A program made the position numbers and the translations under genes. Shown here piece by piece: positions 2,732-7,536 of a stretch of DNA of 7,536 nucleotides. This DNA comes from Prevotella sp. (GTDB lineage Bacteria; Bacteroidota; Bacteroidia; Bacteroidales; Bacteroidaceae): positions 1-7,536 of the forward strand of contig JAILAA010000123.1 in NCBI GenBank assembly GCA_024681875.1, given 5' to 3'. How positions within the stretch are numbered: position 1 is the first letter of the stretch; every line of letters starts with the position of its first letter. The notes under the pieces were generated by a model, which made no database searches, was not told the DNA's origin, and was given only the letters and a program-made list of their open reading frames with translations.

Positions 2732-3796
2732 CTACTTATTGATGATCTCTATCTGCTGACGCACACTCTCCTCATGAATATTCTCGAAGACCTTGGCGAC
2801 AAACTCAGGAGCCATGCCCGATAGTGAACCCTGGACACCGCGTTTTTCCAGTATCTCGTTATAGCGCGTGGCCTGCAGCACGGTCATGTTATGCTCCTTC
2901 TTGTAGTGACCGATCTCACGGCAGACACTCATACGCCTCGACAGGATTTCCATCAGCTGGTTGTCCAGTTCGTCAATCTGTTTGCGTAACTGCTGGATGC
3001 TCTCTGTGGTCACATGCTCGTCACGGATGACCAGCAGGGCTAAGATATAATCCAGCACATCGGGCGTCACCTGCTGCTTGGCATCGCTCCATGCCTTGTC
3101 GGGGTCACAGTGGCTCTCGACAATCAGACCATCGAAGCCTAAGTCCATAGCCTGCTGGCATAACGGGGCTATCAGCTCCCGGCGTCCGCCGATGTGCGAC
3201 GGGTCGCTGATAATGGGCAGTTCGGGAATGCGGCGGTGTAACTCAATGGGTATCTGCCACATCGGAGCATTACGATAAATCTTTTGTTCATAGCTGGAGA
3301 AGCCGCGATGGATGGCTCCCAGACGCTTGACGCCAGCCTGATTGAGTCGCTGCAGGGCACCTATCCATAGCTCCAAGTCGGGATTCACCGGGTTCTTCAC
3401 GAACACAGGCACGTTGGTACCTTTCAAGGCATCGGCCAGAGCCTGCACGGCAAAGGGGTTTGCTGTCGTGCGTGCACCAATCCAGAGGATGTCCATATCA
3501 TATTTCAATGCCAGCTCCACATGCTCAGGCGTAGCTACCTCAGTAGAGATAAGCATGTGGGTTTCCTCCTTCACCTGCTTCATCCAGGGCAGTGCCTTCT
3601 CGCCATTGCCCTCGAATCCGCCTGGCTTGGTACGTGGTTTCCACACGCCAGCACGGAAGTTGTGACAGCCTTTCATAGCCAGCTGTCGGGCGGTCGTCAT
3701 CACTTGTTCTTCGGTCTCGGCCGAGCAAGGCCCGGCAATCACGAAAGGACGTTCATTGTCACTCGGAAGTTTCAAAGGTTCAAGCTCCAGTTCCAT
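2732..3796 (-). CDS. bifunctional DAHP synthase / chorismate mutase (type II)
   Basis: A 354-residue cytosolic fusion enzyme. The N-terminal part (about 15-250) is a DAHP synthase of the I-beta/KDSA-like family, which condenses phosphoenolpyruvate with erythrose 4-phosphate. Visible motifs are AGPCSAE (21-27, C24 a metal ligand), KPRTKPGGFEG (53-63), VKNPVNPD (133-140), HRGFSSYE (163-170), SDPSHIGGRREL (197-208) and ESHCDPD (227-233). The C-terminal part (266-346) is an AroQ-type chorismate mutase. R271, R288, K299 and R311 fall at the same spacing as E. coli R11, R28, K39 and R51, while Y312 stands where E. coli has E52. It is the last gene of the pheA operon, 50 nt downstream of the four-helix-bundle gene, and ends 12 nt before the bidirectional terminator. 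An octamer repeat (3810-3836) ends only 13 nt before its ATG, and no strong Shine-Dalgarno is visible. Fusion of these activities commonly allows prephenate feedback, which the sequence itself cannot show. Confidence 0.95.
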   Translation of the reverse strand: MELELEPLKLPSDNERPFVIAGPCSAETEEQVMTTARQLAMKGCHNFRAGVWKPRTKPGGFEGNGEKALPWMKQVKEETHMLISTEVATPEHVELALKYDMDILWIGARTTANPFAVQALADALKGTNVPVFVKNPVNPDLELWIGALQRLNQAGVKRLGAIHRGFSSYEQKIYRNAPMWQIPIELHRRIPELPIISDPSHIGGRRELIAPLCQQAMDLGFDGLIVESHCDPDKAWSDAKQQVTPDVLDYILALLVIRDEHVTTESIQQLRKQIDELDNQLMEILSRRMSVCREIGHYKKEHNMTVLQATRYNEILEKRGVQGSLSGMAPEFVAKVFENIHEESVRQQIEIINK

Positions 3797-3809
3797 ACTT
3801 TTAGTATTA

Positions 3810-3836
3810 AAGAATTGAAGAATTGAAGAATTGAAG
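3810..3836 (-). repeat. short octamer array, inverted relative to the long array (about 3 units)
   Basis: Three perfect copies of AAGAATTG on the + strand (3810-3817, 3818-3825, 3826-3833) plus AAG. On the minus strand, which is the transcribed sense here, this reads CAATTCTT repeated. It is the reverse complement of the units in the array at 4213-4324. It occupies the spacer between the four-helix-bundle gene stop (3849-3847) and the DAHP synthase start (3796), and it could pair with the long array in the mRNA. Confidence 0.9.
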
Positions 3837-3846
3837 TTCTTCTCAT

Positions 3847-4209
3847 CTACAATTCCGATTGGTTATTTTTTGTTTTCTTTATTGTATTTACTAATGTTCC
3901 CACGATAATCCGCAAATCTTTCATCATCGACTCGTATTCTGAGTCTGTAAGAAAATCTGCTTTTTGTAGAAGTGTAAGCCAATATTTTGTTTCATTCGCT
4001 TCCTTTAATGCTATATATAATTTTGATATGAAATCTGCCTTACTTTGCGCATGCTCACTTTCAGCAATATTTGCACCTATACTCGTACCACAGCGCAACA
4101 ACTGCTTTGACATAACATACTCAAATTTCTCATCGCACAAATACTTATATAAGTTCACAATGCGCAATGCAAAATCCAAGCTCAAATTTGCAACTACGAT
4201 TTCTTTCAT
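3847..4209 (-). CDS. four-helix-bundle protein (S23 / 23S rRNA intervening-sequence protein family)
   Basis: A 120-residue, almost entirely helical, soluble protein with the family signature in order: LRCGTSIGANIAES (38-51), DFISKLYIALKEANETKYWL (59-78), then a final amphipathic helix. Families of this fold include the proteins encoded in 23S rRNA intervening sequences and, more distantly, the Avd accessory proteins of diversity-generating retroelements, which bind nucleic acid. The biochemical role of most members is unknown. I place the start at ATG 4209-4207. An in-frame TTG at 4215 would add two residues, but it lies inside the repeat and would swallow the AAGGA sequence (4220-4216) that sits 6 nt before the ATG. 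The gene is visibly richer in A+T than its operon neighbours and is flanked by inverted octamer arrays, both signs of acquisition. It shares the operon strand, so it is probably cotranscribed with pheA, but no aromatic-pathway function is implied. Confidence 0.9.
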   Translation of the reverse strand: MKEIVVANLSLDFALRIVNLYKYLCDEKFEYVMSKQLLRCGTSIGANIAESEHAQSKADFISKLYIALKEANETKYWLTLLQKADFLTDSEYESMMKDLRIIVGTLVNTIKKTKNNQSEL

Positions 4210-4212
4210 TAT

Positions 4213-4324
4213 CAATCCTTCAATTCTTCAATTTTTCAATTCTTCAATTTTTCAATTCTTCAATTTTTCAATTCTTCAATTTTTCAATTCTTCAATCCTT
4301 CAATCCTTCAATCCTTCAATCCTC
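4213..4324 (-). repeat. 14-unit octamer tandem array overlapping the aminotransferase 3' end
   Basis: Fourteen consecutive 8-bp units run without interruption. On the + strand they are CAATCCTT once (4213), then CAATTCTT and CAATTTTT strictly alternating from 4221 to 4292 (nine units, giving a 16-bp higher-order period), then CAATCCTT three times (4293-4316) and CAATCCTC (4317-4324). The right end lies inside the aminotransferase coding region and supplies its last six codons and stop. The left end reaches the four-helix-bundle start and supplies an AAGGA sequence 6 nt before its ATG. The array fills the 90-nt space between the two genes. Confidence 0.95.
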
Positions 4325-5463
4325 CGAAGCGCAACTTCGAGCTTCTCTTCCTTGGCACAGAGCGAGATGCGGACGTAGCGCTCACCGTTCGAGCCAAAGA
4401 TGAAGCCGGGAGTAATGAACACGCGGGCCTCATGAAGCACGCGCTCCGTCAGATCCTCCACATTCCTGATGTCTTCGGGTATCTTACCCCAGAGGAACAT
4501 ACCCACCTGTTGCGGGTCGTAGGTGCAACCCAGGGCTTCCATAATCTGCTCAGCATACTTGCGCCGACGGGCATAGGTATCGATATTGTACTGGCGGTGC
4601 CAGCTCTCATCGTTCCTGTAGGCCTCAGCGGCTGCCAGCTGGATGCCACGGAAAGTGCCACTCTCTATGTTTGACTGCACCTTCAGAATCCACGAGATGA
4701 ACTGAGCATTAGTGGCGCAAAGGCCTACACGCCAACCAGGCATGTTATGGCTCTTCGACATCGAGTTGAACTCAATGCAGCAGTCCTTGGCACCGGGACT
4801 CTGCAGAATAGACAGATGCTCTTCGCTGAGAATGAAGCTGTAGGGGTTGTCGTTGACCACGACGATGTGATGATCGGTGGCAAACTTCACCAGTCGCTCG
4901 TAGGTCTCACGGCGTGCGCGACCTCCTGTCGGCATATTGGGATAATTCGTCCACATCAGTTTCACCCTCGACTGATCCTTCTTCTCCAGTTCGTCAAAGT
5001 CGGGCTGCCATCCGTTGTCCTCACGTAGATTATAATTAATGATGTCAGCTCCCAGTATCTTCGACAGCGACGTATAGGTCGGATAGCCCGGATTGGGCAC
5101 CAGCACGCCGTCGCCAGGGTTCACGAAGGCCAGCGTCACATGCAGGATGCCTTCCTTCGAGCCAATCAGCGGCAGTATTTCCGTCTTCGTATCCAGTTCT
5201 ACGTCATACCAACGCTTATAGAATCCTGCCATTGCCTCGCGCAGTTCAGGCGTACCCATTGTGGGCTGATAGCCGTGAGCATCGGGACACCTGGCCACCT
5301 CGCACAGCTTCTCGATGGTTTGTTCCGACGGTGGCATGTCGGGGCTGCCAATGGCCAGACTGATAATGTCCTTGCCCTCAGCATTCATCTGTGCCACCTC
5401 CTTCAGCTTGCGGCTGAAATAATATTCGCTTACTAAGCTTAATCTCTCTGCAGGTTGTATCAT
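4300..5463 (-). CDS. PLP-dependent class I/II aminotransferase (probable aromatic/aspartate aminotransferase)
   Basis: A 387-residue fold-type I aminotransferase, cytosolic and normally dimeric. Visible motifs are AIGSPDMPPS (37-46), HGYQPTMGTPELREA (63-77), the NYPNMPTG loop (173-180, N176), NDNPYS (204-209, D205 pairing with the pyridine nitrogen), SMSKSHNMPGWRVG (234-247, Schiff-base K237 and phosphate-binding R245) and YVRIS (363-367, R365 for the substrate carboxylate). It most resembles aspartate/LL-diaminopimelate-type enzymes. Its position after pheA suggests transamination of phenylpyruvate, 4-hydroxyphenylpyruvate or prephenate, but substrate cannot be read from sequence. The ATG lies 5 nt after the pheA stop, so translation is probably coupled; an AGGAGA sits somewhat far upstream within pheA. 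The C-terminal IEGLKD (382-387) and stop codon are written entirely in octamer repeat. Confidence 0.93.
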   Translation of the reverse strand: MIQPAERLSLVSEYYFSRKLKEVAQMNAEGKDIISLAIGSPDMPPSEQTIEKLCEVARCPDAHGYQPTMGTPELREAMAGFYKRWYDVELDTKTEILPLIGSKEGILHVTLAFVNPGDGVLVPNPGYPTYTSLSKILGADIINYNLREDNGWQPDFDELEKKDQSRVKLMWTNYPNMPTGGRARRETYERLVKFATDHHIVVVNDNPYSFILSEEHLSILQSPGAKDCCIEFNSMSKSHNMPGWRVGLCATNAQFISWILKVQSNIESGTFRGIQLAAAEAYRNDESWHRQYNIDTYARRRKYAEQIMEALGCTYDPQQVGMFLWGKIPEDIRNVEDLTERVLHEARVFITPGFIFGSNGERYVRISLCAKEEKLEVALRRIEGLKD

Positions 5464-5468
5464 AATTC

Positions 5469-6299
5469 TTAATTGCCTTTATATTCTCCTAATATCTTCA
5501 AGTCTTTTGTCAGCGGGAAAATGGCATCGATGGCCTGACGATAGCGCACCAGCGACTCGAACATCACATCGACGTAGAACAGGTATTCCCACTCGTGGCC
5601 GATGATGGGCAGCGACTGAATCTTAGTGAGGTTGATCTTGTAGAACGAAAGGATGGCCAGCACAGCCGAGAGACTGCCCTCCTCGTGAGGCAGTGCAAAG
5701 ACAATGCTCGACTTGTTAGCCTCGGTAATAGGCCGCAAGAGGTCGGCCTTCTGTGCTGATGAGCACACCAGGAAGCGAGTGAAGTTGTGCTTGTTGTCCT
5801 CGATGCCGTCCTCCAGCACCTTCAGTCCGTACAGGCGTGCAGCCTCGGCGTGGCAGATAGCGGCCCACCCCCGATGTTCTCCCTCGGCTATCATCTTGGC
5901 CGAGCCGGCTGTGTCGTCGGCCTCCACGATGCGCAGCTGCGGGTGGTGCTCCAGATAGTGACGCGTCTGCATCAGGGCCACGGGGTGCGAGTGCACCTCA
6001 GTGATGGTCGTCCAATCATCGTCGGGCAGACAGCAGATGCAGTGGGTGATGTGCAGCTTATGCTCGCCTACCACCGTAGTGCCACTGTCGCGCAGCAGCT
6101 CATAGTTGTGCAGCAACGATCCTGCAATGGTATTTTCGATGGCCGCCATCGCAATGATCGTCGGGTCGCTGGCCACAGCCTCGTAGACCTGCTCAAAGGT
6201 GGAACAGCAGATGAGCTGCATCTGTTCACCCTTGAAATACTCGTGGGCAGCGATGTCGTGAAACGACCCTATCTCGCCCTGTATGGCTATTCTTCTCAT
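5469..6299 (-). CDS. pheA: prephenate dehydratase with ACT domain
   Basis: A 276-residue cytosolic enzyme that decarboxylates and dehydrates prephenate to phenylpyruvate. The catalytic domain (about 3-180) shows IQGEIGSFHD (6-15), the IENT motif (54-57), HSHPVALMQ (103-111), DDTAGSAK (128-135) and NFTRFLV (172-178), where T174 in the TRF motif is the catalytic threonine. A C-terminal ACT domain (about 198-272) begins FALPHEEGSLSAVL and would be the phenylalanine sensor. Its usual GAL and ESRP motifs appear as GSL (208-210) and QSLP (228-231). There is no fused chorismate mutase; that activity is carried by the DAHP synthase fusion at the end of the operon. The start ATG follows AAAGGG by 4 nt and lies 13 nt after the U-tract of the leader terminator, so the gene is directly controlled by that attenuator. 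Confidence 0.96.
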   Translation of the reverse strand: MRRIAIQGEIGSFHDIAAHEYFKGEQMQLICCSTFEQVYEAVASDPTIIAMAAIENTIAGSLLHNYELLRDSGTTVVGEHKLHITHCICCLPDDDWTTITEVHSHPVALMQTRHYLEHHPQLRIVEADDTAGSAKMIAEGEHRGWAAICHAEAARLYGLKVLEDGIEDNKHNFTRFLVCSSAQKADLLRPITEANKSSIVFALPHEEGSLSAVLAILSFYKINLTKIQSLPIIGHEWEYLFYVDVMFESLVRYRQAIDAIFPLTKDLKILGEYKGN

Positions 6300-6312
6300 A
6301 ATCCCTTTTTAT

Positions 6313-6349
6313 AAAAACGAACCCCACTTTCACCTAAGTGAAGCGGGGT
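6313..6349 (-). terminator. intrinsic terminator of the pheA leader (attenuator hairpin)
   Basis: On the minus strand ACCCCGCTTCAC (6349-6338) pairs with GTGAAAGTGGGGT (6333-6321) around a TTAG loop, giving 12 pairs with one G-U and one bulged A (6328). After three unpaired bases comes TTTTT (6317-6313). No minus-strand gene is visible upstream for it to end, because the neighbouring gene is divergent. It therefore terminates the pheA transcript itself, just before the pheA start, as expected of an attenuator. Confidence 0.88.
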
Positions 6350-6408
6350 CTTATTTCAATTCTTCAATTTTCAATTCTAGAAATTTTACTTACGACTACC
6401 CGCTTCAC
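6338..6408 (-). promoter_or_regulatory. antiterminator pairing of the Phe/Tyr attenuator
   Basis: GTGAAGCGGG (6408-6399), inside the last codons of the leader peptide, is perfectly complementary over 10 bp to CCCGCTTCAC (6347-6338), the 5' arm of the terminator. The two structures are mutually exclusive. A ribosome stalled in the Tyr/Phe codons would leave 6408-6399 free to form the antiterminator. A ribosome reaching the stop at 6388-6386 would cover part of it and allow termination. I see no strong protector hairpin upstream of 6408. Confidence 0.82.
6357..6378 (-). repeat. third octamer repeat copy, in the attenuator loop
   Basis: The + strand reads CAATTCTT (6357-6364), CAATTTT (6365-6371, one base short) and CAATTCT (6372-6378). 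This is the same unit and orientation as the array at 4213-4324. It lies between the leader-peptide stop and the 5' arm of the terminator, so it forms part of the loop closed by the antiterminator. Confidence 0.75.
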
Positions 6409-6463
6409 AATGGCTTGCAAAGTAAAAGTAGAAGTAATAATATGCATTAAAATGCGTCATCAT
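6386..6463 (-). CDS. Phe/Tyr-rich leader peptide of the pheA operon
   Basis: A 25-codon ORF with start ATG at 6463-6461 (a second ATG follows directly) and stop TAA at 6388-6386. Residues 7-16 read AYYYFYFYFA, and F5 adds another aromatic: five Tyr and four Phe in 25 codons, eight of them consecutive (codons 8-15, 6442-6419). The ORF begins about 20 nt after the predicted transcription start, and its last codons contain the antiterminator strand. This is the standard layout of a ribosome-mediated attenuation leader, here sensing both charged tRNA-Phe and tRNA-Tyr. No good Shine-Dalgarno is visible, which is common in this phylum. It was too short for ordinary ORF calling. Confidence 0.88.
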   Translation of the reverse strand: MMTHFNAYYYFYFYFASHCEAGSRK

Positions 6464-6488: not shown

Positions 6489-6520
6489 CAAAATTATAAC
6501 AATTCTCCCAATTACACAAA
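6489..6520 (-). promoter_or_regulatory. Bacteroidetes-type promoter of the pheA operon
   Basis: On the minus strand TTTG (6520-6517), a 20-nt spacer and TAATTTTG (6496-6489) match the Bacteroidetes -33/-7 consensus (TTTG, 19-21 nt, TAnnTTTG) exactly. The expected start is near 6482-6486, giving a leader of about 20 nt before the leader-peptide ATG. It faces away from the promoter of the FHA gene, with 23 bp between the two -33 elements. Confidence 0.85.
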
Positions 6521-7510: not shown

Positions 7511-7536
7511 GCACCCGTAGCTCAGTTGGTAGAGCA
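7511..7536 (+). tRNA. 5' part of a tRNA gene (cut by the window end)
   Basis: GCACCCG (7511-7517) is the acceptor 5' strand, TA are positions 8-9, and GCTC-AGTTGGTA-GAGC-A is a canonical D arm. The anticodon lies beyond the window. From memory this 5' half resembles tRNA-Lys of Bacteroidetes, but the isotype cannot be read here. Confidence 0.9.

Follow-up and report, generated by a model that had tools for sequence, protein, structure and literature searches.

The DNA in front of pheA in this Prevotella sp. very probably holds a transcription attenuator of the classical, ribosome-mediated kind, one that senses the charging of tRNA-Phe and tRNA-Tyr jointly; we put the probability of this reading at about 0.93. 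In the window, by which we mean the whole 7,536-nt stretch of contig JAILAA010000123.1 that was analysed, the classical set of mutually exclusive pairings (1:2, 2:3 and 3:4) is complete. Leader and stems are conserved in relatives, helices 1:2 and 3:4 covary, and the element tracks the aromatic operon. It is a well-conserved Phe/Tyr attenuator of an already known type, with a tandem variant in relatives. A sequence-only reading of this DNA had proposed a complete attenuator before pheA, and this remains the best reading.

The attenuator sits on the minus strand between a divergent FHA-domain gene and pheA (Table 1). The two promoter elements, TTTG and TAATTTTG, are separated by a 20-nt spacer (N20), an arrangement of the Bacteroidota type, and the leader ATG lies 25 nt past the end of the -7 element. 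The earlier claims of a phylum-type promoter about 20 nt upstream, a leader of 25 codons with an unbroken run of eight aromatic ones, a terminator hairpin with T5 before pheA and a perfect 10-bp alternative pairing are all borne out by the window. In that alternative pairing, the antiterminator 2:3, GTGAAGCGGG pairs with CCCGCTTCAC, which is itself the 5' arm of the terminator; an A/G-rich spacer lies between the leader ORF and the terminator hairpin. The 1:2 hairpin (6403-6422, CTTTGCAA with TTGTGAAG) was absent from the sequence-only reading and is added here. An Rfam cmscan of the window gave no family at E ≤ 1, RF01692 and T-box included, and T-box and other riboswitches were dropped as candidates because of this lack of a match.

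Table 1. Features of the attenuator and of the genes behind it, in window coordinates
Feature	Position	Strand	Basis and remarks
-33 promoter element TTTG	6517..6520	minus	read from sequence
-7 promoter element TAATTTTG (TAnnTTTG)	6489..6496	minus	sequence and 77-locus comparison
Leader ORF MMTHFNAYYYFYFYFASHCEAGSRK	6386..6463	minus	25 codons and stop TAA (6388-6386)
Eight consecutive regulatory codons, Tyr-Tyr-Tyr-Phe-Tyr-Phe-Tyr-Phe (YYYFYFYF)	6419..6442	minus	sequence, fold
Segment 1 CTTTGCAA of the 1:2 hairpin	6415..6422	minus	overlaps last Phe codon; fold and alignment
Part of segment 2 TTGTGAAG, partner of segment 1	6403..6410	minus	fold and alignment
Segment 2 GTGAAGCGGG, antiterminator 5' strand	6399..6408	minus	within CEAG codons of the leader
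Segment 3 CCCGCTTCAC	6338..6347	minus	common to antiterminator 2:3 and terminator 3:4
Intrinsic terminator hairpin 3:4	6320..6350	minus	about -18 kcal/mol; CG next, then U5
U5 tract of terminator (T5)	6313..6317	minus	sequence
pheA, prephenate dehydratase (PF00800)	5469..6299	minus	Pfam
Aminotransferase class I/II (PF00155)	4300..5463	minus	Pfam
23S rRNA-intervening-sequence protein (PF05635), operon insertion	3847..4215	minus	Pfam
DAHP synthase fused to chorismate mutase (PF00793 + PF01817)	2732..3796	minus	Pfam

Among relatives, the commonest gene order is pheA, aminotransferase, DAHP synthase-chorismate mutase and tyrA, with tyrA following DAHP synthase in 67 of the 81 loci formed by the listed relatives and the window (contig ends cut some of the others). 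In the window, tyrA was not found after the DAHP synthase-chorismate mutase gene; the gene run stops there, met by a convergent Wzz-type gene, and by eye a long inverted repeat (2637-2732) lies between the two. The sequence-only reading had placed pheA, the aminotransferase, a four-helix-bundle gene and DAHP synthase-chorismate mutase under joint control. We retain this for the three biosynthetic genes, whereas control of the four-helix-bundle gene (PF05635), which lies inside the aromatic operon in 5/81 loci, is possible but would be incidental. Rfam found no 23S rRNA in the window. Repeats of an 8-nt unit, ATTGAAGA / TCAATTCT (3806-3836, 4212-4320 and 6355-6378) flank the inserted gene and also occur within the attenuator spacer, and comparable repeats are visible by eye in the spacers of many relatives. 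At the far end of the window (7511-7536), what appears by eye to be the start of a tRNA gene is cut off.

A comparison with close relatives, which the sequence-only reading had suggested as a check alongside an Rfam search, leaves its proposal standing. The relatives were 80 pheA loci among the matches listed from the genome collection; the closest are 90-91% identical, and their titles are mostly Prevotella or Prevotellaceae from ruminants. An aromatic-run leader lies within 330 nt of pheA in 76 of these 80 listed relatives, and the stems are kept. One of the four loci that lack the leader (L053) is on a contig that starts 140 nt upstream, with segment 2 and the terminator still visible. The other three (L024, L035 and L038) have no aminotransferase or DAHP synthase behind pheA in the usual orientation, and a search of their genomes with R1, a covariance model built from 60 leaders, placed the attenuator directly before the aminotransferase in 3/3. 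In these three genomes the element has stayed behind while pheA moved away; what it accompanies is therefore the aromatic operon rather than pheA.

Further measurements were made on 77 loci, comprising the 76 relatives and the window (L024, L035, L038 and L053 left out; L049, which falls under the automatic codon rule, put in by hand). The -7 motif TAnnTTTG precedes the leader ATG in 77/77, at a distance of 25-30 nt in 70, and TTG or TTTG stands ahead of it in every locus, at 21 nt in 67 and 24 nt in 10 as the script measures it. By a U-tract rule, an intrinsic terminator and its U tract precede the first gene in 72 of the 77 loci, the window among them, and five terminators fail the rule. After dinucleotide shuffling of positive regions, an aromatic leader with a terminator appeared in 1/290. 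One metagenome-assembled genome (G405) has two pheA operons (L229 and L233), each with its own attenuator, by duplication or in a mixed bin.

A 2:3 helix of 7-11 bp, beginning 9-13 nt past the last aromatic codon, is present in 77/77 loci, and the observed length was reached with shuffled spacers in 134 of 15,400 trials. In a 60-sequence alignment, 96.5% of cells in 3:4 are paired, with 38 both-side changes against 12 in shuffles; the corresponding values for 1:2 are 97.3% and 12 against 2, and one of its A-U pairs has become G-C in 10 of the 60 sequences. For 2:3, 92.5% of cells are paired and both-side changes number 6 against 4.5, so that its covariation within Prevotella is weak, because segment 2 hardly varies there. 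We therefore tested 2:3 on 57 wider loci, where the summed pairing energy was as low with permuted partners in 0 of 2,000 permutations; this set includes one locus entered with the wrong ORF by the script's choice (L174) and some near-duplicates (L136/L138). In four of the 57 (L149, L154, L159 and L168) the native 2:3 pairing was no better than the swapped-partner mean. At L229, a change in segment 2 is matched, by eye, in segments 3 and 4.

In the mechanism that we propose, a ribosome translating the leader while Phe and Tyr are plentiful would read through the aromatic run, reach the stop of the leader and cover segment 2, and the 3:4 terminator would then halt RNA polymerase before pheA. 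With either amino acid scarce, the ribosome would stall in the run and cover segment 1; segment 2 could then capture segment 3 once it is made, leaving the terminator unable to form, so that transcription would continue through pheA, the aminotransferase gene and the DAHP synthase-chorismate mutase gene. Such a scheme would require that the leader is translated, that transcription and translation are synchronized and that termination is efficient, and it would make the operon respond to starvation. Bacteroidota ribosomes initiate largely without Shine-Dalgarno pairing.

Folding of the full-length leader at equilibrium was rejected as a test of the switch, as the two states are not separated: even where the ribosome is stalled, the terminator stands above 0.5 in 67-70 of the 77 loci, which speaks against a plain equilibrium switch, and the window is bistable. 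The terminators are too stable for this calculation to tell the states apart, and a switch must therefore be kinetic. When the transcript instead stopped with segment 3, segment 4 being still unmade, and ribosome footprint lengths were assumed, 2:3 exceeded 0.5 in 76-77 of 77 loci for a ribosome stalled in the run (four positions tried), and in a single locus (L041) for a ribosome at the stop codon. With these assumed footprints, segment 2 is hidden once the ribosome has reached the stop codon and stays free while it is stalled; the geometry thus fits a kinetic, ribosome-controlled decision. With no ribosome, 2:3 exceeded 0.5 in 42/77 loci, the window among them, and termination may therefore be no strong default in an untranslated leader. 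The window values for 2:3 on the cut transcript are 1.0 when stalled, 0.0 at the stop codon and 1.0 with no ribosome. In an untranslated leader 1:2 would compete with 2:3, and for the window the folding has 2:3 winning and so favours read-through, unlike the textbook case.

Two other accounts of the same DNA give the leader or the hairpin a different role. The leader might be an upstream ORF that controls translation, by reinitiation at pheA or by stalling that unmasks its start, with the hairpin incidental. The retention of the ORF in nearly all listed relatives would suit this, and reinitiation at leader genes has been put forward for bacteria including Bacteroidetes (PMC4833913). However, the leader stop and the start codon of pheA (ATG, 6299) are 86 nt apart, with the terminator and its U tract in between, the alternative pairing leaves the pheA start untouched, and the covarying 3:4 hairpin precedes whichever gene comes first, be it pheA, the aminotransferase or DAHP synthase; we consider translational control very improbable. 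Alternatively, the terminator could be constitutive, or governed by an antiterminator protein, and the aromatic ORF a by-product of pyrimidine-rich RNA. The dominance of the terminator at equilibrium is in keeping with this, as is the full-length fold of the window, where the pyrimidine-rich run can serve as a partner for segment 4. Against it, diverged leaders retain an in-frame Phe/Tyr run after the start codon, the stems change together, and matches at both kinds of locus surveyed below fall overwhelmingly on the forward strand, so that we give this account hardly any credence.

An attenuator might also respond in practice to only one of the two amino acids, the codons for the other being neutral, since one limiting tRNA species is enough for stalling. 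Over the 77 leaders, the run contains 248 Phe, 358 Tyr and 7 Trp codons, a purity that is partly by construction as the run was located through its aromatic codons. Both amino acids are represented by at least two codons each in 76/77 Prevotella leaders and in 56 of the 57 wider leaders. These codons match the products of the operon, in which pheA, the aminotransferase and DAHP synthase-chorismate mutase are usually joined by tyrA, and the frequent presence of tyrA would explain why the codons are mixed. The operon of the relatives makes both amino acids, and stalling on either is therefore the natural reading; we infer that scarcity of Phe alone or of Tyr alone would suffice, and regard sensing of a single amino acid as unlikely.

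Across the phylum to which Prevotella sp. P6B1 belongs, we surveyed 198 genomes, and pheA is present in 172 of them. The DNA before pheA was read in 110 of the 172, leaving out 62 pheA-positive genomes; these 110 loci are a non-random set (the 30 best-scoring and 80 hand-picked from the listed matches, mostly stand-alone pheA), and 29 of them have an aromatic leader and terminator. At a stricter cut there were 28/110 on the forward strand versus 1/110 on the reverse. The fraction is low because many of these genomes lack the fused operon or have another gene first, a difficulty removed by taking DAHP synthase-chorismate mutase as the anchor. The DAHP synthase-chorismate mutase fusion (near full-length matches, E below 1e-100) is present in 54/198 genomes, and 46 of these 54 have the leader: 28 at pheA, 17 more upstream of DAHP synthase, and G001. 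Among the remaining fusion genomes, two are ambiguous and not counted as positive (L257 and L258), and six are negative where read. In genomes without the fusion, one of the 77 pheA loci read is positive (L157). These tallies were compiled by hand.

The DAHP-anchored loci were read over about 5.5 kb before DAHP synthase, giving 18/30 on the forward strand versus 2/30 in the reverse-strand control. The leader lies directly before DAHP synthase in L245, L254 and L255; L240, where it lies about 1.1 kb upstream with another gene in between, was counted as positive, and an aromatic ORF at L246:1623 was treated as spurious and ignored. At the two ambiguous loci, where DAHP synthase is apart from pheA, possible leaders end in YYRFYWYC (L257:5109) and YRFYYWYC (L258:5239), and a convincing terminator was not found behind them. 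R1 matched 40/198 Bacteroidales-order genomes; being a Prevotella model, it misses diverged leaders and was therefore not used for prevalence. Separately, leader ORFs with a His run (for example MITTLHHNHHHCHHCFG) and a terminator lie upstream of hisG in 9/16 Bacteroidales-order genomes (L264, L265, L266, L268, L269, L270, L271, L277 and L279), and no clear one was seen in the five Prevotella-type genomes tried.

Adjacent pairs of R1 matches in four genomes point to a tandem form. Two leader-terminator units stand in series in 6 of the 28 Bacteroidales-order loci read (28 of the 30 returned), namely L130, L135, L136, L138, L140 and L143, and in 3 of the 30 DAHP-anchored loci (L237, L241 and L247). 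In all nine, both leaders have Phe/Tyr runs and the stems differ between the units. In 8/9, each segment 2 has a better partner in the terminator of its own unit than in that of the adjacent one; L247 is the exception. As L136 and L138 are nearly alike, the nine loci are not all independent. Such pairs look like a natural instance of attenuators placed in series that respond to the same signal. A literature search on tandem attenuators with leader peptides gave, as its title match, Salmonella mgtCBR (PMC3641672), which as described there also has two leader-ORF attenuators in one leader; those respond to two different signals, ATP and proline, whereas both members of the pairs found here are Phe/Tyr.

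The pheA attenuator of E. coli (pheL) resembles the present element in its leader peptide, its alternative hairpins and its control of prephenate dehydratase, and differs in phylum and operon; its regulatory codons are Phe only. Closer at hand, Bacteroid-trp (RF01692, from PMC2864571) shares the phylum, the leader ORF and the terminator hairpin, and has Trp codons and different stems of its own, with no match to the window. In a covariance search, 5 of the 14 genomes tried matched RF01692, four of them over the cut-off, and 5/5 matches have a leader with WW or WWW and, behind it, a terminator hairpin.

The sequence-only reading knew of no characterized mixed Phe/Tyr attenuator in Bacteroidetes, a statement that needs qualifying in view of this Trp leader in the same phylum and of two earlier signs. 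Table 7 of a 2005 paper (PMC1173090) gives a putative attenuator before the B. thetaiotaomicron operon pheA>hisHb>aroA-aroQ>tyrA, taken from Merino's web site. Operon and place are the same, and it is probably the same element; the table entry lists it as putative only, with no leader peptide, codons or conservation described there. A 2021 paper (PMC9723704) reports a conserved structured element 5' of pheA in Flavobacterium psychrophilum and other Flavobacteriaceae, with no Rfam match, and suspects leader-peptide attenuation upstream of amino-acid operons; a structured leader thus precedes pheA as it does here, and the passages on that element give no Phe/Tyr leader or stems. PMC7366714 mentions short ORFs in B. 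thetaiotaomicron that resemble leader peptides, and Fig. 6b of PMC6429828, a paper on five bacterial genomes, presents Phe/Tyr-containing uORFs near shikimate genes, akin to that of the window. As stated in PMC2965389 (2010), leader peptides had, to the knowledge of its authors, been shown only in Proteobacteria and Actinobacteria. Among the titles and abstract openings listed by literature searches, no Bacteroidota Phe/Tyr leader peptide appeared beyond the papers just cited, and a fuller earlier description may exist, for instance in two comparative-genomics papers (PubMed 20198868, 17477496).

The attenuator would account for how Phe and Tyr synthesis is set in Prevotella and probably in many other Bacteroidota. 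The conserved, covarying set of leader and stems suffices to define a new RNA family, none in Rfam having matched the window, and it offers a ready test of whether ribosome and RNA polymerase run in step in Bacteroidota. On balance, and with some reserve, we favour the view that a single bivalent Phe/Tyr attenuator of ancestral origin serves the entire Phe-Tyr branch in Bacteroidota, that it stays with the operon even where a different gene has come to stand first, and that several lineages have turned it into two independent units in series, which would multiply control. If this is true then, together with the Trp and His leaders in the phylum, synchrony between transcription and translation would be a general working principle of Bacteroidota leaders.
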